37,219 bases of DNA, from positions 1 to 37,219 of the forward strand of contig DUMM01000079.1 of NCBI GenBank assembly GCA_012839845.1, read 5' to 3'. The translations under genes were made by a program, and so were the position numbers. Below the pieces are notes generated by a model. That model was not told where the DNA came from, searched no databases, and saw only the letters and a program-made list of their open reading frames with translations. Source of the stretch: Bacillota bacterium (lineage in GTDB: Bacteria > Bacillota > Limnochordia > DTU087). Shown piece after piece: positions 20,574 through 27,936 of this stretch (the first letter of the stretch is position 1; each line of letters opens with the position of its first letter).

Positions 20574-20641
20574 ATTGCCAAGGTGTGGGAGGCTTCAGTG
20601 ACTGTAAGCTAAACTTGCAGGCGAGGGGGAGTAGAGCCGTA

Positions 20642-21850
20642 ATGGGAAGAGTAACAGCTGTTGTGCCGGCAGCGGGAAAAGGACTGCGGATGGGGCTTGA
20701 AAGTCCGGGGAAGCAGTTTGCAGACCTGGGAGGCAAGCCGGTCCTTGCCCATACATTGACGGCTTTAGCTGCTGCAGAGGCGGTTGATGGGATAATTGTG
20801 GTGACGGGGAAGGAGCAGATCCCTTTAGCCAGGCGTTTGGTGCAAGACTATCCTGTGGGCAAAGTGCACGATATAGTACCGGGGGGCGACACCCGGCAGG
20901 AATCGGTACGGCTGGGGCTCAGCCGAGTTCCTTGCGACACGGAGATAGTTGTAGTACACGACGGCGCCAGGCCCTTGGTAGAGCCGGTCCTGGTTAATCA
21001 GGTCATCGAGGCCGCGCGGGAGTACGGGGCGGCGGGTGCGGCAGTGCCGGTGAAAGACACCATCAAAGTAAGCGACGAAGCGGGATTCGTCATCTCTACT
21101 CCGTCGAGGGATAGATTGTGGGCCATTCAAACTCCTCAGGCCTTTCGCTGTGAACTCCTCAAGGAGGCACATCGGCAGGCTCAAGCCCAGGGCTATGAGG
21201 GTACCGATGACTGCATGCTGGTGGAAAAGCTGGGTCGGCCGGTTAAGCTGGTTTTGGGCAGCTACCGGAACATCAAGCTGACAACACCGGAAGATATGAT
21301 TATCGCCGCAGCTCTGCTGGAGGCCGCTGCCAAGGGGCAGTCTCGGGAGGACAGGGGGCCCATGCCGAGACCTCGGGTTGGGTGGGGATATGATGTTCAT
21401 CAGCTGGTGGAAGGCCGCCCCCTGATTCTGGGAGGTGTTGCTGTCCCCCATGAAAAGGGCCTCTTGGGCCACTCCGATGCCGATGTACTGCTCCATGCGG
21501 TGATGGACGCGCTGCTTGGGGCGCTGGCCTTAGGTGATATAGGTCAGTATTTCCCCGACACCGACCCCAAGTGGCGGGGGGCCAGCAGTCTGGAGCTCCT
21601 GCGGCAGGTGGGCAGCATCATAGCCTCGGTCCAAACCCGCAAACCTGTTATTTCCCACATCGACTGCGTGATTATCGCCGAGCGGCCCAGACTAGCCGCT
21701 CATATTCCCCAAATGCGCAGAAACATTGCAGAGGCTTTGCAGCTGGACATCGATCAGGTGAGCATCAAGGCCACAACATCCGAGGGTTTGGGGCCGGCGG
21801 GGCGGGGCGAGGGAATCATCGCCCAGGCGGCAGCTCTGGTTTTGGCATAA
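20642..21850 (+). CDS. ispDF: Bifunctional IspD-IspF fusion (MEP pathway)
   Basis: 402 aa carrying two non-consecutive MEP-pathway enzymes. Residues 1-~230 are IspD (CTP + MEP to CDP-ME): [11 protein letters not shown]...[20 protein letters not shown]. Residues ~241-402 are IspF (cyclodiphosphate synthase): GWGYDVHQL with the metal Asp/His, [19 protein letters not shown], and a C-terminal [16 protein letters not shown] short charged linker (QSREDRG) joins them with no stop or frameshift. The start is ATG 20642 after gaggggga; the track's longer N-terminus lacks family similarity. Firmicutes usually carry ispD and ispF as adjacent separate genes; the fused form is well known in some Proteobacteria. 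An ATG with a purine-rich upstream (21361 area) opens the IspF part, so internal initiation is possible. Confidence 0.93.
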
Positions 21851-21927: not shown

Positions 21928-22719
21928 TTGCAGCGACTTATCAGCCTGATACTCAGCCTGATCTTAATCTTTACTGTCGGAAGCGGGTTGGTCCGGGAAC
22001 TCTACTCTGTAGGGGATGTAATAATGGCCGGTGAGAGCATCGGTGTCCGCCAAACCCGCATTGGCGGAAGGGAGGTAGGTGAGGTTCTGGTCAACGGCCA
22101 AGTCGTCCTGCGGGTGAGGACCAGTGCAGGAGGCCTTACTCCCTTCCAGCGGGCAGCGGTTATAGCCGGCCGGATAGCTGCCTGCGCAGGGGAAGGGTAT
22201 CGTCCTGATGCCATTCTGCCGGATGTAGTCAACGGCAGCAATGCTGTCAGCTGGAGAGGAGAATTGATCGCAACAGTGGATGCTGCCCACGCCAAACTAA
22301 ACAATACCACTCCCTACCTGCTGGCCAAAGTCTGGGCCAACAACATGCGGCGGGCATTTGGTTGTGCCTCCGTTCCTACCGAATATGTCTTGGACGATGC
22401 CAATGGTGAAGTGATCACTGCTTTCTGCACAGCCTCTTGGTACGGCGACGGATTGGACGGTCAGGTTACCGCCAGCGGTGAGCTGTTTGACAGCTCGGCT
22501 CTTACCGCTGCCCACCGCTATCTCCCCTTTGGCACACGGGTGCGGGTTACCAACCTGTATAACGGCAAGAGCGTAGTGGTGGTCATTAACGATCGAGGGC
22601 CCTATGTGAAAGGCAGAGCCATAGACCTCTCAAAAGGAGCCGCAATTGCTCTGGGCATGAAAGAACAGGGCATCGGTCCAGTCAAATTGGAGGTCATGGG
22701 GTCAGGGAGGGTTATCTAA
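21928..22719 (+). CDS. RlpA-like double-psi beta-barrel exported protein
   Basis: 263 aa. An N-terminal hydrophobic segment (LISLILSLILIFTVGSGL) acts as signal peptide or anchor. Residues ~30-160 are an unfamiliar extracellular region. Residues ~165-262 are a double-psi beta-barrel RlpA domain: TASWYGDGLDGQ, LTAAHRYLPFGTRVRVTN, NDRGPYVKGRAIDLS with the conserved Asp233. Relatives cleave or bind peptidoglycan. The track ORF runs back into ispDF in another frame; TTG 21928, 9 nt after aggagg, is the best start (TTG 21922 is too close). Its stop overlaps the next ATG by one base (taATG), so the two are translationally coupled. Confidence 0.78.
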   Translation: MQRLISLILSLILIFTVGSGLVRELYSVGDVIMAGESIGVRQTRIGGREVGEVLVNGQVVLRVRTSAGGLTPFQRAAVIAGRIAACAGEGYRPDAILPDVVNGSNAVSWRGELIATVDAAHAKLNNTTPYLLAKVWANNMRRAFGCASVPTEYVLDDANGEVITAFCTASWYGDGLDGQVTASGELFDSSALTAAHRYLPFGTRVRVTNLYNGKSVVVVINDRGPYVKGRAIDLSKGAAIALGMKEQGIGPVKLEVMGSGRVI

Positions 22720-23669
22720 TGGCCCAATCCAGCAATGCGGCTAAGGGCTTGGCGGCAGTCAAGCTGCCCTTTGCGGCGGCTGGTGCCTTTATCGCGCTCT
22801 GCTTGGCATTCTGGGTTGCTACGGCAGCAGCTGCGGCAAATGGGGTTGCAGTATGGGGAGCAGACTTGTCCCCTTCGGAAAAGACCAAGATAGTCCAGCT
22901 GATGGGCATTGAGCCCAGTGACATAGCTCTGGAGCTGACTGTGACCAATGCCGAAGAGCATGCCCTGTTGGGAAGTACAGTACCCGCCTCCTATCTGGGC
23001 ACCCGGGCTGTGTCATCAGCCTATGTGCGTCCCCTGGAGGCAGGAAAGGGCCTGAAGATTACAACTCACAACATCACCTGGGTTTCCAAGCGGATGTTTG
23101 CTCAGGCGCTGGTAACAGCCGGGATGCGAGACGCGGAGGTAATTGCAGCGGCTCCGGTACCGGTTTCGGGCACAGCAGCTTTGACCGGCATCTTCAAGGC
23201 CTTCGAGACGGCATCCGGTGATGAGCTTCCCCGCAGAGCCAAGGAGCTGGCCGGCGAGGAGCTATACATCACCCGAGAGGTAGGGGAGTCCATCGGCCAG
23301 GAGCAAGCCGGCCGGCTGATGGAAATGGTGAAAAGACAGGTTGTGGAGCAGGGGCTGACCGACGAAGAACAGGTTATTGAGGTTGTCCGCAGGATAGCCG
23401 CTGACCTGGACTTGAGCCTTACGGAAAGGGAAATTGAGAGAATCGCCTCCCTGATGTCCAAGCTCCAGGAATTGGACCTCAAGCTGGATGATCTGGACAG
23501 GCAGCTTCGTCAAATATCCGACAATGTCAGCATCCTTGCAGAAGGGCAAAGAGGCCTGCGGAGTTCTTTAGCTGCCTGGCTGCAGCAGCTTCTGGATTTC
23601 TTGGCCCGGCTCTTGGAGCAGCTGATGTCCTTTGCTGGCGGTGTTCTTAAGCGGCTGCTGCCGGCCTAA
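22719..23669 (+). CDS. DUF1002-family exported protein
   Basis: 316 aa with a signal peptide or anchor (residues ~15-42, ending in TAAAAANG). The body matches my memory of the DUF1002 family: VWGADLSPSEKTKIVQLMG, VTNAEEHALLGSTVPASYLGTRAVSSAYV, THNITWVSKRMFAQALVTAG, PVSGTAALTGIFKAFE. The C-terminal ~100 residues are an acidic coiled-coil-like helix followed by an amphipathic/hydrophobic tail. No activity is known for the family. One-base overlap with the RlpA-like gene implies a joint envelope role. The 3' end converges on the DUF441 gene with a 16-nt gap. Confidence 0.75.
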   Translation: MAQSSNAAKGLAAVKLPFAAAGAFIALCLAFWVATAAAAANGVAVWGADLSPSEKTKIVQLMGIEPSDIALELTVTNAEEHALLGSTVPASYLGTRAVSSAYVRPLEAGKGLKITTHNITWVSKRMFAQALVTAGMRDAEVIAAAPVPVSGTAALTGIFKAFETASGDELPRRAKELAGEELYITREVGESIGQEQAGRLMEMVKRQVVEQGLTDEEQVIEVVRRIAADLDLSLTEREIERIASLMSKLQELDLKLDDLDRQLRQISDNVSILAEGQRGLRSSLAAWLQQLLDFLARLLEQLMSFAGGVLKRLLPA

Positions 23670-23685
23670 ACGCGGATATCGGCTG

Positions 23686-24132
23686 TCAGCGGCTGAACAG
23701 TTCAGTCAAGAGTGCGGCCATACCTGCTGCCACCAATGGACCTACCGGAATGCCGTCAAAGAATGTGGCGCCGATAATGGTACCTATCACCAGCCCGGTG
23801 ATGCTTTCCGGGTGTGTTTTCAAGAGGCTAAGCCCCTTGGCACCTAGATAAGCACCGGCGATGCCTCCGAGGATGGCTGCAGTACCCTGGGGAGTGATGA
23901 ACGCGCCTACCAAATCCCTGCTGGTTAACTCCCCAGCGGCAAAGGGCGTCAAGATGGCAAAGATAAGAAGAGTGAGCCCTGCCCGAAAGCCTGGCCCTTC
24001 GAGGTACGGCAAGACCCAGTGAATGCCCAAGAGGCGGATTAACAAAAGGCCGGCGGCAGAGACAGAAACAAGGCGGTTGTCTCCAATCACTCCCAGAAAG
24101 AGCAAGAACAAGAGGCATAAATCGTGGAACAC
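23686..24132 (-). CDS. DUF441 / UPF0756 membrane protein
   Basis: 148 aa with about four membrane helices, resembling the YeaL/DUF441 family: FLGVIGDNRLVSVSAAGLLLIRLLG, LTSRDLVGAFITPQGTAAILGGIAGAYLGAKGL, VIGTIIGATFFDGIPVGPLVAAG. The start is GTG, with an aggagggg SD 6-7 nt upstream. It is the last of four minus-strand genes (comA, micro-protein, yeiH, this one), 138 nt after yeiH, so it is probably but not certainly in the same transcript. Function unknown. Confidence 0.75.
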   Translation of the reverse strand: MFHDLCLLFLLFLGVIGDNRLVSVSAAGLLLIRLLGIHWVLPYLEGPGFRAGLTLLIFAILTPFAAGELTSRDLVGAFITPQGTAAILGGIAGAYLGAKGLSLLKTHPESITGLVIGTIIGATFFDGIPVGPLVAAGMAALLTELFSR

Positions 24133-24270: not shown

Positions 24271-25326
24271 TTAACCCAGCACTGCGTGGATCATTATGAA
24301 AGTGGCTGCGGCCACCAGCACCTCCACGCCAAGTCCCACTGCAAAGGGCCTTAACCCTGCCCGCATGCGGCTTCGCTGCAGGGAAAGCCCAACGCCAGCA
24401 AAGGTCAGGAGAAAAGCCCAGTTGGAGAGATTGGTCAGAAGCTGGGCCTGACTTGCCGTAAAAAAGCCGACGGTCTTCAGGGATGACAGGAGCAGAAACC
24501 CCAGGACGAACTTGGGGAACCTCGACCAGAGGAAGGCCCCTTTGTTCTCGATATCTCGCGTAAGCCCTTGCCGGGCATGGAGCAAGGCGAAAAAGAGGAT
24601 CACAAATCCCATCAGAGCATTCCGCGACAGCTTCACCAGTGTTGCTACTTCGCCGGCCCGCTCGGAAAAGGCCATGCCGGTGGCAACTGCCTCTGCGGTG
24701 TTATCGACGGTTAGACCCGCCCAGTAACCGAACATTATATCTGTCATGCCGGTCAAACGTCCGATGATGGGATATACAGCCAGGCCCATGGCCCCAAAGA
24801 TGAGGACCGTGGCGATAGCGTAGCTGGCCTCTTCTTCAGTCGCGTTGATGGCTCCAGTTGCTCCGATAATGGCCGATACTCCGCAGATGCCGCTGCCCAC
24901 GCCGATGAGGCTGCCCAGTCCTTCGGAAAGGCCTGCCCATTTGGAAAGGAGCCGGGCGGTGAATATTGCCAAACAGATTTCCATTAGTACCAGGACGATG
25001 CCGGTGCCTCCAATATGGATGACACTGGACATGGCAAATTTGGCTCCCATCAGCACGATTCCGACCTTGAGCCAGAATTCGTAGGTACGCACACCTGGGA
25101 TAAACACCTTAGGCAAAGAAACGGCGTTAGAGATCAGGGCACCAAAGGCGATGGCAAATATGACATATTCCATATGGGGAACATACTGGGCAGCGACTTT
25201 TCCCAGAATACCGACGACAAAGAGCAGCGCGATGCCGGGAATAAACCTCAGCCCCTGTGTGAGGAGATTCGGAGACGCGTCCGCAACCGATCTGCTGGTA
25301 GATATGTTCTCTTCCAGTTGACCCAT
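24271..25326 (-). CDS. YeiH/UPF0324-family putative anion (sulfate/sulfonate) exporter
   Basis: 351 aa, about ten membrane segments. Family hallmarks: KVGIVLMGAKFAMSSV, the Gly-rich GVGSGICGVSAIIGATGAINATEEE re-entrant-like loop, YWAGLTVDNTAEAVATG, and a C-terminal LTFAGVGLSLQRSRMRAGLRP. Relatives are described as putative sulfate exporters and some occur beside sulfonate-degradation genes. Here it lies just downstream of phosphosulfolactate synthase and a one-TM micro-protein, so a sulfonate or sulfate anion is a reasonable guess at the substrate. ATG with an aggaggttt SD. Confidence 0.8.
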   Translation of the reverse strand: MGQLEENISTSRSVADASPNLLTQGLRFIPGIALLFVVGILGKVAAQYVPHMEYVIFAIAFGALISNAVSLPKVFIPGVRTYEFWLKVGIVLMGAKFAMSSVIHIGGTGIVLVLMEICLAIFTARLLSKWAGLSEGLGSLIGVGSGICGVSAIIGATGAINATEEEASYAIATVLIFGAMGLAVYPIIGRLTGMTDIMFGYWAGLTVDNTAEAVATGMAFSERAGEVATLVKLSRNALMGFVILFFALLHARQGLTRDIENKGAFLWSRFPKFVLGFLLLSSLKTVGFFTASQAQLLTNLSNWAFLLTFAGVGLSLQRSRMRAGLRPFAVGLGVEVLVAAATFIMIHAVLG

Positions 25327-25358
25327 GACTGTAAACCTCCTGCCTCATGGATGCCGCC

Positions 25359-25466
25359 CTACCAGGGGATTTGCGGCAGCAGCTGGATTTTGGCTAAAGC
25401 AGCAATCACCAGTGCAGTCAGGACTGCAATCCAATCAAGGGACAACCGCCCCTTCTGTTTCGACAC
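25359..25466 (-). CDS. Single-TM micro-protein (35 aa) between comA and the exporter
   Basis: Absent from the ORF track. GTG 25466 follows a gaggaggtga SD by 6 nt, overlapping the end of comA by 32 nt in another frame. The product is MSKQKGR, then LDWIAVLTALVIAALAK, then IQLLPQIPW: a basic N-terminus, one hydrophobic helix and a short Trp-ending tail, i.e. N-in topology. It ends 32 nt before the exporter gene. Size, topology and position resemble small accessory subunits of transporters (compare MetS with MetP), so I infer a small subunit of the YeiH-type protein. The strong SD and coherent TM composition support it; no family is known to me. Confidence 0.6.
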   Translation of the reverse strand: MSKQKGRLSLDWIAVLTALVIAALAKIQLLPQIPW

Positions 25467-26277
25467 CGAGAGTCACCTCCTCGATGGTGAGCTTCAGTGT
25501 ATCGGACCGCATTCCCAAGCGGGTGGCCTCTAAAGCCAACACGTCGCCGGGCTGGATGTTGCCCAAGTTGACGCTGTGGCCCAGTTTGGTCAGGAGCTCT
25601 TTCTGCTGGGACACCTGAGGCGCCTCCCAGATAATGTTCTCCGGATGGAGTACGTTCTCGAGAACAGCTTCCAAGACGTCATTCTTGATATGTCCCGAAT
25701 TGTCGTAGATGCCGATGCCCCGGCCCGATTCCCTGGCTTCTACTATGACCCTGTAGGCGCCTGTATCCAGGTCCTGTTCGATTTGGCGGGCAGCTGCTTT
25801 AGGATCAAAGGGGGCATCCGTGTCTTTCTTGCCCACCTCGGTCAGTACGCCCAGACCAAGGGTATGGGCCCGGATAATGATCTGCCGCCGTTGAGAGGGC
25901 GAAAGGTCTATCGTTCCAGAAGAGACCTCCACATAGGTAAACCCCAGTTCTTTGACCAAGGAGAGAAACTCCTCAGCCTTGCCTTGAAGAACAGCCACCT
26001 CCAGCAGGGTGCCGCCCGGGTAAACATCGACGCCGTAGGACTTGACTAAAGAGATCTTTTTGGCCAGCTGTTCTGCGGGATATAGGGGTGCAGTTCCAAA
26101 TCCCAGTTTAATGAAGTCCACGTAATCAGCGGTGAGTGACAGCCAATGCTCGGTGGTTACAAGATCCATGCCCTTATCGATCACCATGGTCAGGCCGCTA
26201 AACCGGGGTTTGGGCTGACGGCCCTTCCACGGAGGCCGAAGAAGCTCGTTCCACGGGCTGTGCAGCTGATACGTCAT
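25435..26277 (-). CDS. comA: Phosphosulfolactate synthase (ComA family)
   Basis: 280 aa. ComA joins sulfite and phosphoenolpyruvate to give (2R)-phospho-3-sulfolactate, first step of coenzyme M synthesis in methanogens and of sulfolactate formation in some Bacillus (YitD). Motifs: TMVIDKGMD, ADYVDFIKLGFGT, VDVYPGGTLLEVA, FTYVEVSSGTIDLS, DTGAYRVIVEARESG, a TIM-barrel series. The track starts at 26331; ATG 26277, 7 nt after ggaggg, is the better start. ComB (phosphatase) and ComC (dehydrogenase) are not in the window. First gene of the minus-strand block, divergent from cysS. Confidence 0.9.
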   Translation of the reverse strand: MTYQLHSPWNELLRPPWKGRQPKPRFSGLTMVIDKGMDLVTTEHWLSLTADYVDFIKLGFGTAPLYPAEQLAKKISLVKSYGVDVYPGGTLLEVAVLQGKAEEFLSLVKELGFTYVEVSSGTIDLSPSQRRQIIIRAHTLGLGVLTEVGKKDTDAPFDPKAAARQIEQDLDTGAYRVIVEARESGRGIGIYDNSGHIKNDVLEAVLENVLHPENIIWEAPQVSQQKELLTKLGHSVNLGNIQPGDVLALEATRLGMRSDTLKLTIEEVTLGVETEGAVVP

Positions 26278-26451
26278 AGGGCATCCCTCCAATGGTTGAA
26301 AGGTGAAAGAAGTCGCAATCTCCTTTACCATATGCGCTTTAGATCCTAGTGGTCACTGCAGCAGCGGCAGAACTGCTATGCTTTTGAGAAAGACTATGTT
26401 AGGATATAGGAAGAAGTTTGCGGCTGTGCCGCAGTAGAGAGGGAGATAGCC

Positions 26452-27936
26452 GTGGCCATTCAGGTGTATAACACGCTGACCAGGAAGAAAGAACCCTTTG
26501 TCCCCCGGGATCCGGGGCACGTTTCCATATACGTTTGCGGCATCACCCCTTATGATCAGAGCCACTTGGGTCATGCTGTCCCTTCTATCATTTGGGATGC
26601 AATACGCCGCTTCTTGGAGTTTAAGGGATATAAGGTGCGGCTGGTGCAAAACTTTACTGACATAGATGATAAGATCATCGCCAGGGCCCAAGCCACCGGG
26701 GAGGATGTCTTCGAGATCTCCCAGCGCTATGCCCAGGAGTATCTAGATGCTATGGATGCCTTGGGAGTTAAGCGGGCAGATCTTTATCCCCGGGTCAGCC
26801 AGGAGATCCCCGCCATCACAGCTATGGTGCAGGAACTGATTAAGAAAGGCCACGCCTATGTGGTGGATGGGGATGTGTACTTCGATGTTACTTCTTTTCC
26901 TGAATACGGTAAGCTGTCGGGACAGCAGCTGGAGGAATTAGAAGCAGGTGTCCGGCTGAGTGTCGATGAACGCAAGCGCCACCCCATGGATTTTGCTCTG
27001 TGGAAAGCCGCCAAACCCGGGGAGCCTGCTTGGGACAGCCCCTGGGGTAAAGGGCGTCCCGGATGGCATATAGAATGCTCCGCTATGTCTCTGAAATACT
27101 TAGGTAACGGCTTTGACTTCCACGGCGGCGGCGTTGACCTGGTTTTTCCCCATCATGAAAATGAAATCGCCCAGTCGGAGTCTTATACCGGGGAACCTCC
27201 CTTTGCCCGCTGCTGGCTGCACAACGGGCTTCTGCAGGTCAAGGACGAGAAAATGTCCAAGTCCTTGGGGAACTTCACCCCTTTGGCAGGTCTTCTGGAT
27301 AAGTATCCGGCCGGGGTGATTCGGCTTTACGTACTGTCTTCCCATTACCGCAGTCCTTTGCAGTACAGCGAAGAAAAGCTGGAGGAAGCAAGGCGGGGCT
27401 GGGAGCGGCTCATGGATACGGTGGCGAATCTCAAGTATTTGCTGTCCTCATGGGAAAAAGCGGGTAGTCCTGGGGCGGATAGGCCGTCATTGGAGGAGAT
27501 AGAATCTCCTGCCGTCCGGCAGCTGGCTGAGGAAGTCGAGTCCTCCCGCAGCAAGTTCATCGCCGCCATGGAGGATGACTTCAACACCGCCGGAGCCACT
27601 GCCGCGCTGTTTGAGCTGGCCCGGAGCATCAATGCTTTTCAAGGGCAGACGGCAAACTTAACAGATAGGGAGAGGCAGCAGTGCCTGCCGGTACTGAGGG
27701 AGGCCGCCGCTGTTTTCCAGCAGTTGGGCGGCGGTATCCTGGGCCTGATAGAGGACAAATCCAGTCCCTCCGGGGCCGAGCAGCTCACTGAGGCGCTGCT
27801 GGAGCTGTTGGTAGAGGTGCGGCAGCGGGCGAGGGACAAAAAAGATTGGGCCACTGCTGATTATATTCGGTCCGAGCTGGGCAAATTGGGTGTGAAACTG
27901 GAAGATTCGCCCTTGGGGACCCGCTGGAAATTGTAG
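26452..27936 (+). CDS. cysS: Cysteinyl-tRNA synthetase
   Basis: 494 aa, usual for CysRS. HIGH-type motif HLGH in [16 protein letters not shown] (Cys29 as zinc ligand), further zinc ligands in WHIECSAMS and the [10 protein letters not shown] stretch, KMSKS in [12 protein letters not shown], and a C-terminal helical anticodon-binding region. The motif wording GITPYD..HLGHA is also that of the related ligase MshC, but MshC is about 410 aa and lacks this C-terminal extension, so CysRS is favoured. GTG start after gagaggga. A 6-bp hairpin (tgcggc/gccgca) lies just before the SD; no T-box is seen. Confidence 0.95.

Follow-up and report, generated by a model that had tools for sequence, protein, structure and literature searches.

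In Bacillus subtilis, sulfolactate makes up 5% of the spore dry weight, and the yitCD genes (ComB-ComA) are chiefly controlled by SigK; a late-sporulation operon, yitBA-yisZ, has been connected, together with yitCD, with the synthesis of phosphosulfolactate (PMC517825). A second group of proteins, the YeiH transporters of the PSE family (TC 2.A.98), has a PF03601 membrane core and a sulfur-oxyanion context. Mutation of yeiH makes Salmonella 20 times more sensitive to sulfite, independently of the sulfite reductases, and YeiH has been described as the main sulfite-resistance factor of this organism (PMC12880088). YeiH/SuyZ, studied in Paracoccus, has been proposed to extrude sulfite (PMC11582611). 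Homologues of ComA and YeiH are encoded close together in the locus described here.

The window, that is, the whole stretch of 37,219 nucleotides analysed, belongs to a genome of 2.06 Mb whose close relatives are uncultured Bacillota MAGs, e.g., 'Clostridiales bacterium DTU087'; the names of these isolates read as an anaerobic-digester origin. Four consecutive genes occupy the minus strand. The 3' end of comA (25435..26277; 280 aa) is overlapped by 32 nt by an ORF for a one-helix micro-protein of 35 aa (25359..25466). The start of yeiH (24271..25326), which encodes a transporter core of 351 aa, lies 32 nt past the end of this ORF, and a gap of 138 nt separates yeiH from the gene of a DUF441 membrane protein of 148 aa (23686..24132; PF04284, 135.5 bits against a cut-off of 26.5). 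No terminator-like site was found between these genes on the minus strand. The boundaries outside the unit are formed by two plus-strand genes, the divergent cysS ORF (26452..27936), a flank conserved in the host family, and a convergent DUF1002 gene (22719..23669; PF06207), a flank kept in most members of the family. Elsewhere in the window, IspD and IspF read as one fused ORF (20585-21850).

The order comA-micro-YeiH is kept in all 11 host-family genomes, which cover six genera, and the DUF441 gene comes next after YeiH in 10 of them, namely all those whose contig reaches that far. The same arrangement occurs in the DTU030/AS08, SURF_36/Symbiobacterium, SKS1.bin113 and f70/f35 lineages; in a phylum-wide draw, it was recovered in f35 and f70 (L262, L266, L267, L268), and comA lay near micro-YeiH in two more loci (L264, L272). 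The preliminary description had read the block as a candidate sulfur unit. Its conservation in 11/11 host-family genomes and in unrelated Firmicutes lineages indicates a real unit and more than chance, and the loss of adjacency in relatives that would have spoken against it is not seen.

The reading preferred here, with a probability of roughly 0.5, is that of a late-sporulation operon, driven by SigK in the mother cell and comprising comA, the micro-protein gene, yeiH and the DUF441 gene, which would make the sulfolactate of the spore. ComA would combine PEP and sulfite into phosphosulfolactate, from which ComB, encoded elsewhere, would remove the phosphate. YeiH together with the 35-aa helix protein would form one transporter handling sulfite, most likely for import, a step invoked because these cells apparently lack a route from sulfate to sulfite. 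The DUF441 protein would be another conserved partner in the membrane and is a candidate transporter of the product. We infer that the helix associates physically with YeiH and that the product is located in the spore.

The enzymatic part of this proposal rests on family assignments. ComA matches PF02679 (290.8 bits against a cut-off of 25.2) and, over its full length, TIGR03849, the NCBIfam equivalog model of archaeal ComA (322 bits against 280); phmmer also retrieves the solved phosphosulfolactate synthases 9cm1, 24fo, 1qwg and 1u83. It is a predicted phosphosulfolactate synthase using PEP and sulfite. Its start is better placed at 26277 than at 26331, where the longest listed ORF begins; in our own reading of the sequences, several relatives either lose the frame of this upstream extension or interrupt it with a stop. 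The preliminary description had called for a genome search for comB and comC, which yielded comB, unlinked to comA (G000:C85:27281-27940, 239.5 bits), and no ComC-type dehydrogenase (Ldh_2, PF02615) in the 11 host-family genomes. The comB gene is solitary; groEL and a gene that probably encodes diaminopimelate dehydrogenase lie nearby (G000:C85; L090:9240-9983). Since ComB is present and a ComC-type Ldh_2 absent, sulfolactate should be the end product in the host family. The locus resembles yitCD in its ComA homologue, its spore-forming host and the late mother-cell SigK control that is here deduced from the promoter, and sulfolactate is indeed made in B. subtilis (PMC517825). It differs from yitCD in that comB is unlinked, a two-part YeiH transporter and DUF441 follow comA, and the genome yielded no set of genes leading from sulfate to sulfite.

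The region upstream of comA carries a block, TG(A/G)CC...CATA, common to all 11 host-family members. The corresponding window site, ACCACTAGGATCTAAAGCGCATATGGTA (26326..26353, minus strand; AC-N17-CATANNNTA, with GCATATGGTA as -10), is the only strict AC-N16/17-CATANNNTA match on either strand of the 37-kb window. Compared with the B. subtilis SigK consensus KCACM / GCATANNNTA (quoted in PMC3416734), its -10 is perfect against GCATANNNTA and its -35, TGACC, agrees with KCACM at four of five positions. Strict SigK-type sites precede 9/11 host-family comA genes versus 14/1387 other upstream regions. Relaxed sites precede all 11, as well as 17 of the 63 other named Firmicutes comA genes against 60/1387 in the background (p 5e-9). 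When comA was clustered at 75% identity, the motif was found in 11/39 versus 51/905 (p 1.6e-5); in the tetramer control after clustering, permutations of CATA gave nothing, and AATA matched CATA in enrichment when all 256 tetramers were compared, so that this enrichment is supportive, not decisive. A vegetative promoter and control by SigE, SigF or SigG were also considered and set aside, as neither SigA-type sites nor the motifs of these three factors are enriched upstream of comA. The absence of the SigK motif upstream of the host-family comB counts against the sporulation reading, as does the lack of significant enrichment in the MFS-comA units of other class members. All 11 host-family genomes encode a SigK above the cut-off and two Spo0A_C-domain proteins (e.g., G000:C50, G000:C133). 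With the AC-N16/17-CATANNNTA site upstream and SigK in the genome, the comA operon has the sequence marks of a SigK regulon member, and its control by SigK appears likely on these grounds. A second conserved block, TATCCTAACATAGTCTC, is present on the minus strand between cysS and comA (~26390-26415) in most host-family members, and is perhaps a cysS promoter or leader.

The micro-protein (25466..25359, minus strand) starts with GTG and has the sequence MSKQKGRLSLDWIAVLTALVIAALAKIQLLPQIPW. Its ORF is preceded by a ribosome site of the AGGAGGTGA type in 10/11 host-family genomes and by GGGAGGTGA in the other one. The residues (L/I/V)SL(D/E)W...PW are kept in the family and pN/pS is ~0.31; on account of these three features, it is very probably translated and under selection as a protein. 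The preliminary description had treated it as a separate item. Homology identifies it instead as the missing N-terminal helix of YeiH. In a search of 399 genomes with a profile built from 12 micro-proteins, every hit with E<=1e-4 either immediately preceded a YeiH core or formed one polypeptide with it. Of the free-standing hits, 14 were fetched, two of them from genomes already represented among the seeds; each one immediately precedes a YeiH gene, with or without comA nearby, and so does a further free-standing hit (E 6e-5). Weak hits outside YeiH genes, with E above ~1e-3, look like chance. The profile also matches, at positions 11-34, the N-terminus of one-piece YeiH proteins of ~440-480 aa (G029, G161, G025, G371, G024, G123, G412), and hhalign of the micro-proteins against the fused N-termini gave 95.9% probability (E 6e-9, 25 columns). 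Because free copies lie upstream of YeiH genes and match the N-terminus of the one-piece proteins, the micro-protein is, as judged from homology and gene position, a detachable first helix of the transporter, belonging to YeiH and not to ComA. A limited literature search found no published description of a small YeiH-linked protein, which does not imply its absence elsewhere.

The YeiH core matches PF03601 (229.9 bits against 24.5) and falls below the cut-off of TIGR00698, the NCBIfam model of YeiH proper (113.5 versus 232.6 bits). It shares the membrane core with Salmonella YeiH (PMC12880088) and Paracoccus SuyZ (PMC11582611), and differs from them in this lower score, in its separately encoded N-terminal helix and in a branch that sits with sulfite-consuming enzymes. 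With the fused long-form YeiH of Firmicutes, it shares the helix motif DWW(A/T)V...P, the core family and the operon type, the difference being that those are single polypeptides of ~430-480 aa and the window has a 35-aa helix plus a 350-aa core. In an unrooted tree of 50 YeiH cores, labelled by whether the helix is separate, fused or missing, two label changes suffice, which is the minimum. The fused proteins form a single group (99/98 support), separate forms branch on either side of the split that sets this group off, and the rows without the helix make up a separate group. One fusion event would be the simplest account, and any order of events read from the tree is tentative, since it has no root and its branches without the helix are long. 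A helix-bearing YeiH group is proposed, defined by a DWW-type N-terminal helix, separate or fused, and a PF03601 core; the window protein has both. Sequence searches retrieved no solved relatives of YeiH. The AlphaFold2 model of the core (pLDDT 81.9, with low confidence over the N-terminal 19 residues) gave weak Foldseek matches to NapA, NhaP and CitS (best E 1.5e-3; rmsd mostly high). Those to NapA and CitS hint at an elevator-type transporter, in agreement with the YeiH fold described in PMC4602095. A model of the fused form from eight sequences was of low quality (pLDDT 71.7) and was left out of the conclusions.

The gene neighbours of this group bear on its substrate. Helix-bearing YeiH, split or fused, is a neighbour of three systems that consume sulfite, namely ComA, a fusion of sulfite reductase with TusA, and dsr. 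In one operon (L263), ThiS-ThiF, a JAB protease and a sulfite/nitrite reductase-TusA fusion precede micro and YeiH; in another (L278), ThiF, JAB and the same reductase-TusA are followed by a fused YeiH. The presence of both forms in the same operon type supports their equivalence. These operons (L263:2248-7333, L278:2199-7510) look in themselves like a sulfite assimilation system based on a sulfur carrier. At a third locus (L273:1830-11060), a DsrK-like gene, an oxidoreductase-rhodanese, a free-standing micro and YeiH are followed by DsrA (575 bits), DsrB (524 bits) and DsrC, and in L276 a fused YeiH adjoins DsrK-like and DsrM-like genes. Another helix-bearing copy lies near an SsuA-like ABC transporter (L270). 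As sulfite is the metabolite common to the ComA, reductase-TusA and dsr settings, these contexts suggest that YeiH carries sulfite rather than sulfolactate.

The direction of transport is less directly indicated. No matches to ATP-sulfurylase (PF01747), PAPS/APS reductase or CysD (PF01507) or sulfite/nitrite reductase (PF01077, NIR_SIR) were obtained in the 11 host-family genomes, and controls were positive in genomes known to have them. Unlike B. subtilis, the cells are therefore apparently unable to make sulfite from sulfate; unless it came from other internal sources such as thiosulfate or sulfonates, ComA would then need sulfite from outside, which favours import, and transport by micro and YeiH is probably inward. 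The sulfite resistance conferred by YeiH in Salmonella suggests outward transport, and counts against this. Both substrate and direction are to be taken as predictions. An alternative built on outward transport is detoxification, with ComA fixing sulfite and YeiH expelling the remainder, without any special role in the spore. It fits the Salmonella phenotype (PMC12880088), the extrusion proposed for YeiH/SuyZ (PMC11582611) and a host devoid of sulfite reductases. A detoxification operon should, however, serve growing cells, and the conserved site upstream of comA is of a type recognized by SigK, which acts only late and in the mother cell; the alternative is considered rather unlikely.

Export of sulfolactate by YeiH and its helix is a further possibility; under SigK control, it would run from the mother cell to the forespore, much as SpoVV transports dipicolinate. 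Any mother-cell product meant to end up in the spore has to pass the outer forespore membrane. YeiH comes directly after comA in one operon, and a gene resembling MFS exporters pairs with comA elsewhere, in 26/34 loci from other families of the class and 34/63 named loci. In the former, comA follows the MFS gene between metG and rsmI. These units resemble the window block in that comA and a transporter gene stand together as a small group surrounded by housekeeping genes, and differ from it in the non-homologous transporter, the missing micro-protein and the absence of significant SigK-motif enrichment. The two-gene unit occurs in ~26 same-class genomes (L037-L063, e.g., L044:4439-6763), often followed by an AbrB/SpoVT-like gene. 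Among the 63 named Firmicutes loci outside the host family, the genes within three positions of comA include MFS (34), DUF441 (29, 27 of them on the same strand), DUF2619 (21), ComB (18) and YeiH (5); all five YeiH loci (L167, L169, L194, L199, L202) have a micro ORF between comA and yeiH. In L194 and L199, MFS and YeiH genes flank the same comA, and because they coexist, their roles are not readable from replacement. Against export by YeiH stand this coexistence, the helix-bearing YeiH copies beside reductase-TusA and dsrABC with no adjacent comA, and published YeiH phenotypes that concern sulfite (PMC12880088). The preliminary description had suggested both spore sulfolactate and sulfolactate export: the first half gains from the SigK-type promoter and from SigK and Spo0A in 11/11 genomes, and the second is less likely than sulfite transport, as published YeiH work concerns sulfite (PMC12880088, PMC11582611). 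Export of sulfolactate through YeiH is thus judged improbable.

As transporter of the product, the DUF441 protein has a claim at least equal to that of YeiH. It occurs beside comA in both YeiH-type and MFS-type operons (e.g., window 23686-24132, L183, L188, L198, L207-L211). A literature search on DUF441 returned nothing of use.

It is very doubtful that the micro-protein is a mere translational-coupling leader or an independent regulator with no part in the transporter: its overlap with comA and its distance from yeiH would suit coupling, but it is selected as a protein, linked to YeiH even without comA, and shares homology with the N-terminal part of undivided YeiH proteins. That ComA feeds coenzyme M or another sulfonate, as its passing the archaeal equivalog model might suggest, is most improbable in view of the missing ComC-type dehydrogenase and the sulfolactate precedent of B. 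subtilis (PMC517825).

Extended beyond this family, the proposal can only be tentative: Firmicutes may possess two-component sulfite importers, with a YeiH core and a separate one-helix subunit that is fused in some lineages, which would supply ComA late in sporulation in spore formers without sulfate assimilation and so fill the spore with sulfolactate. Widespread as they are, YeiH/PSE transporters have hardly been studied biochemically and carry the annotation 'putative sulfate exporter'. The split or fused helix and the recurring sulfite-consuming neighbours make their substrate and subunit composition testable, and could correct many annotations; a conserved transporter subunit of 35 residues is also the kind of gene that standard annotation overlooks. 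The SigK-type sites suggest that the loading of spores with sulfolactate reaches many anaerobic Firmicutes, sulfate reducers and bacteria of digesters among them. If this is true, germinating spores would release an organosulfonate into those anaerobic habitats.
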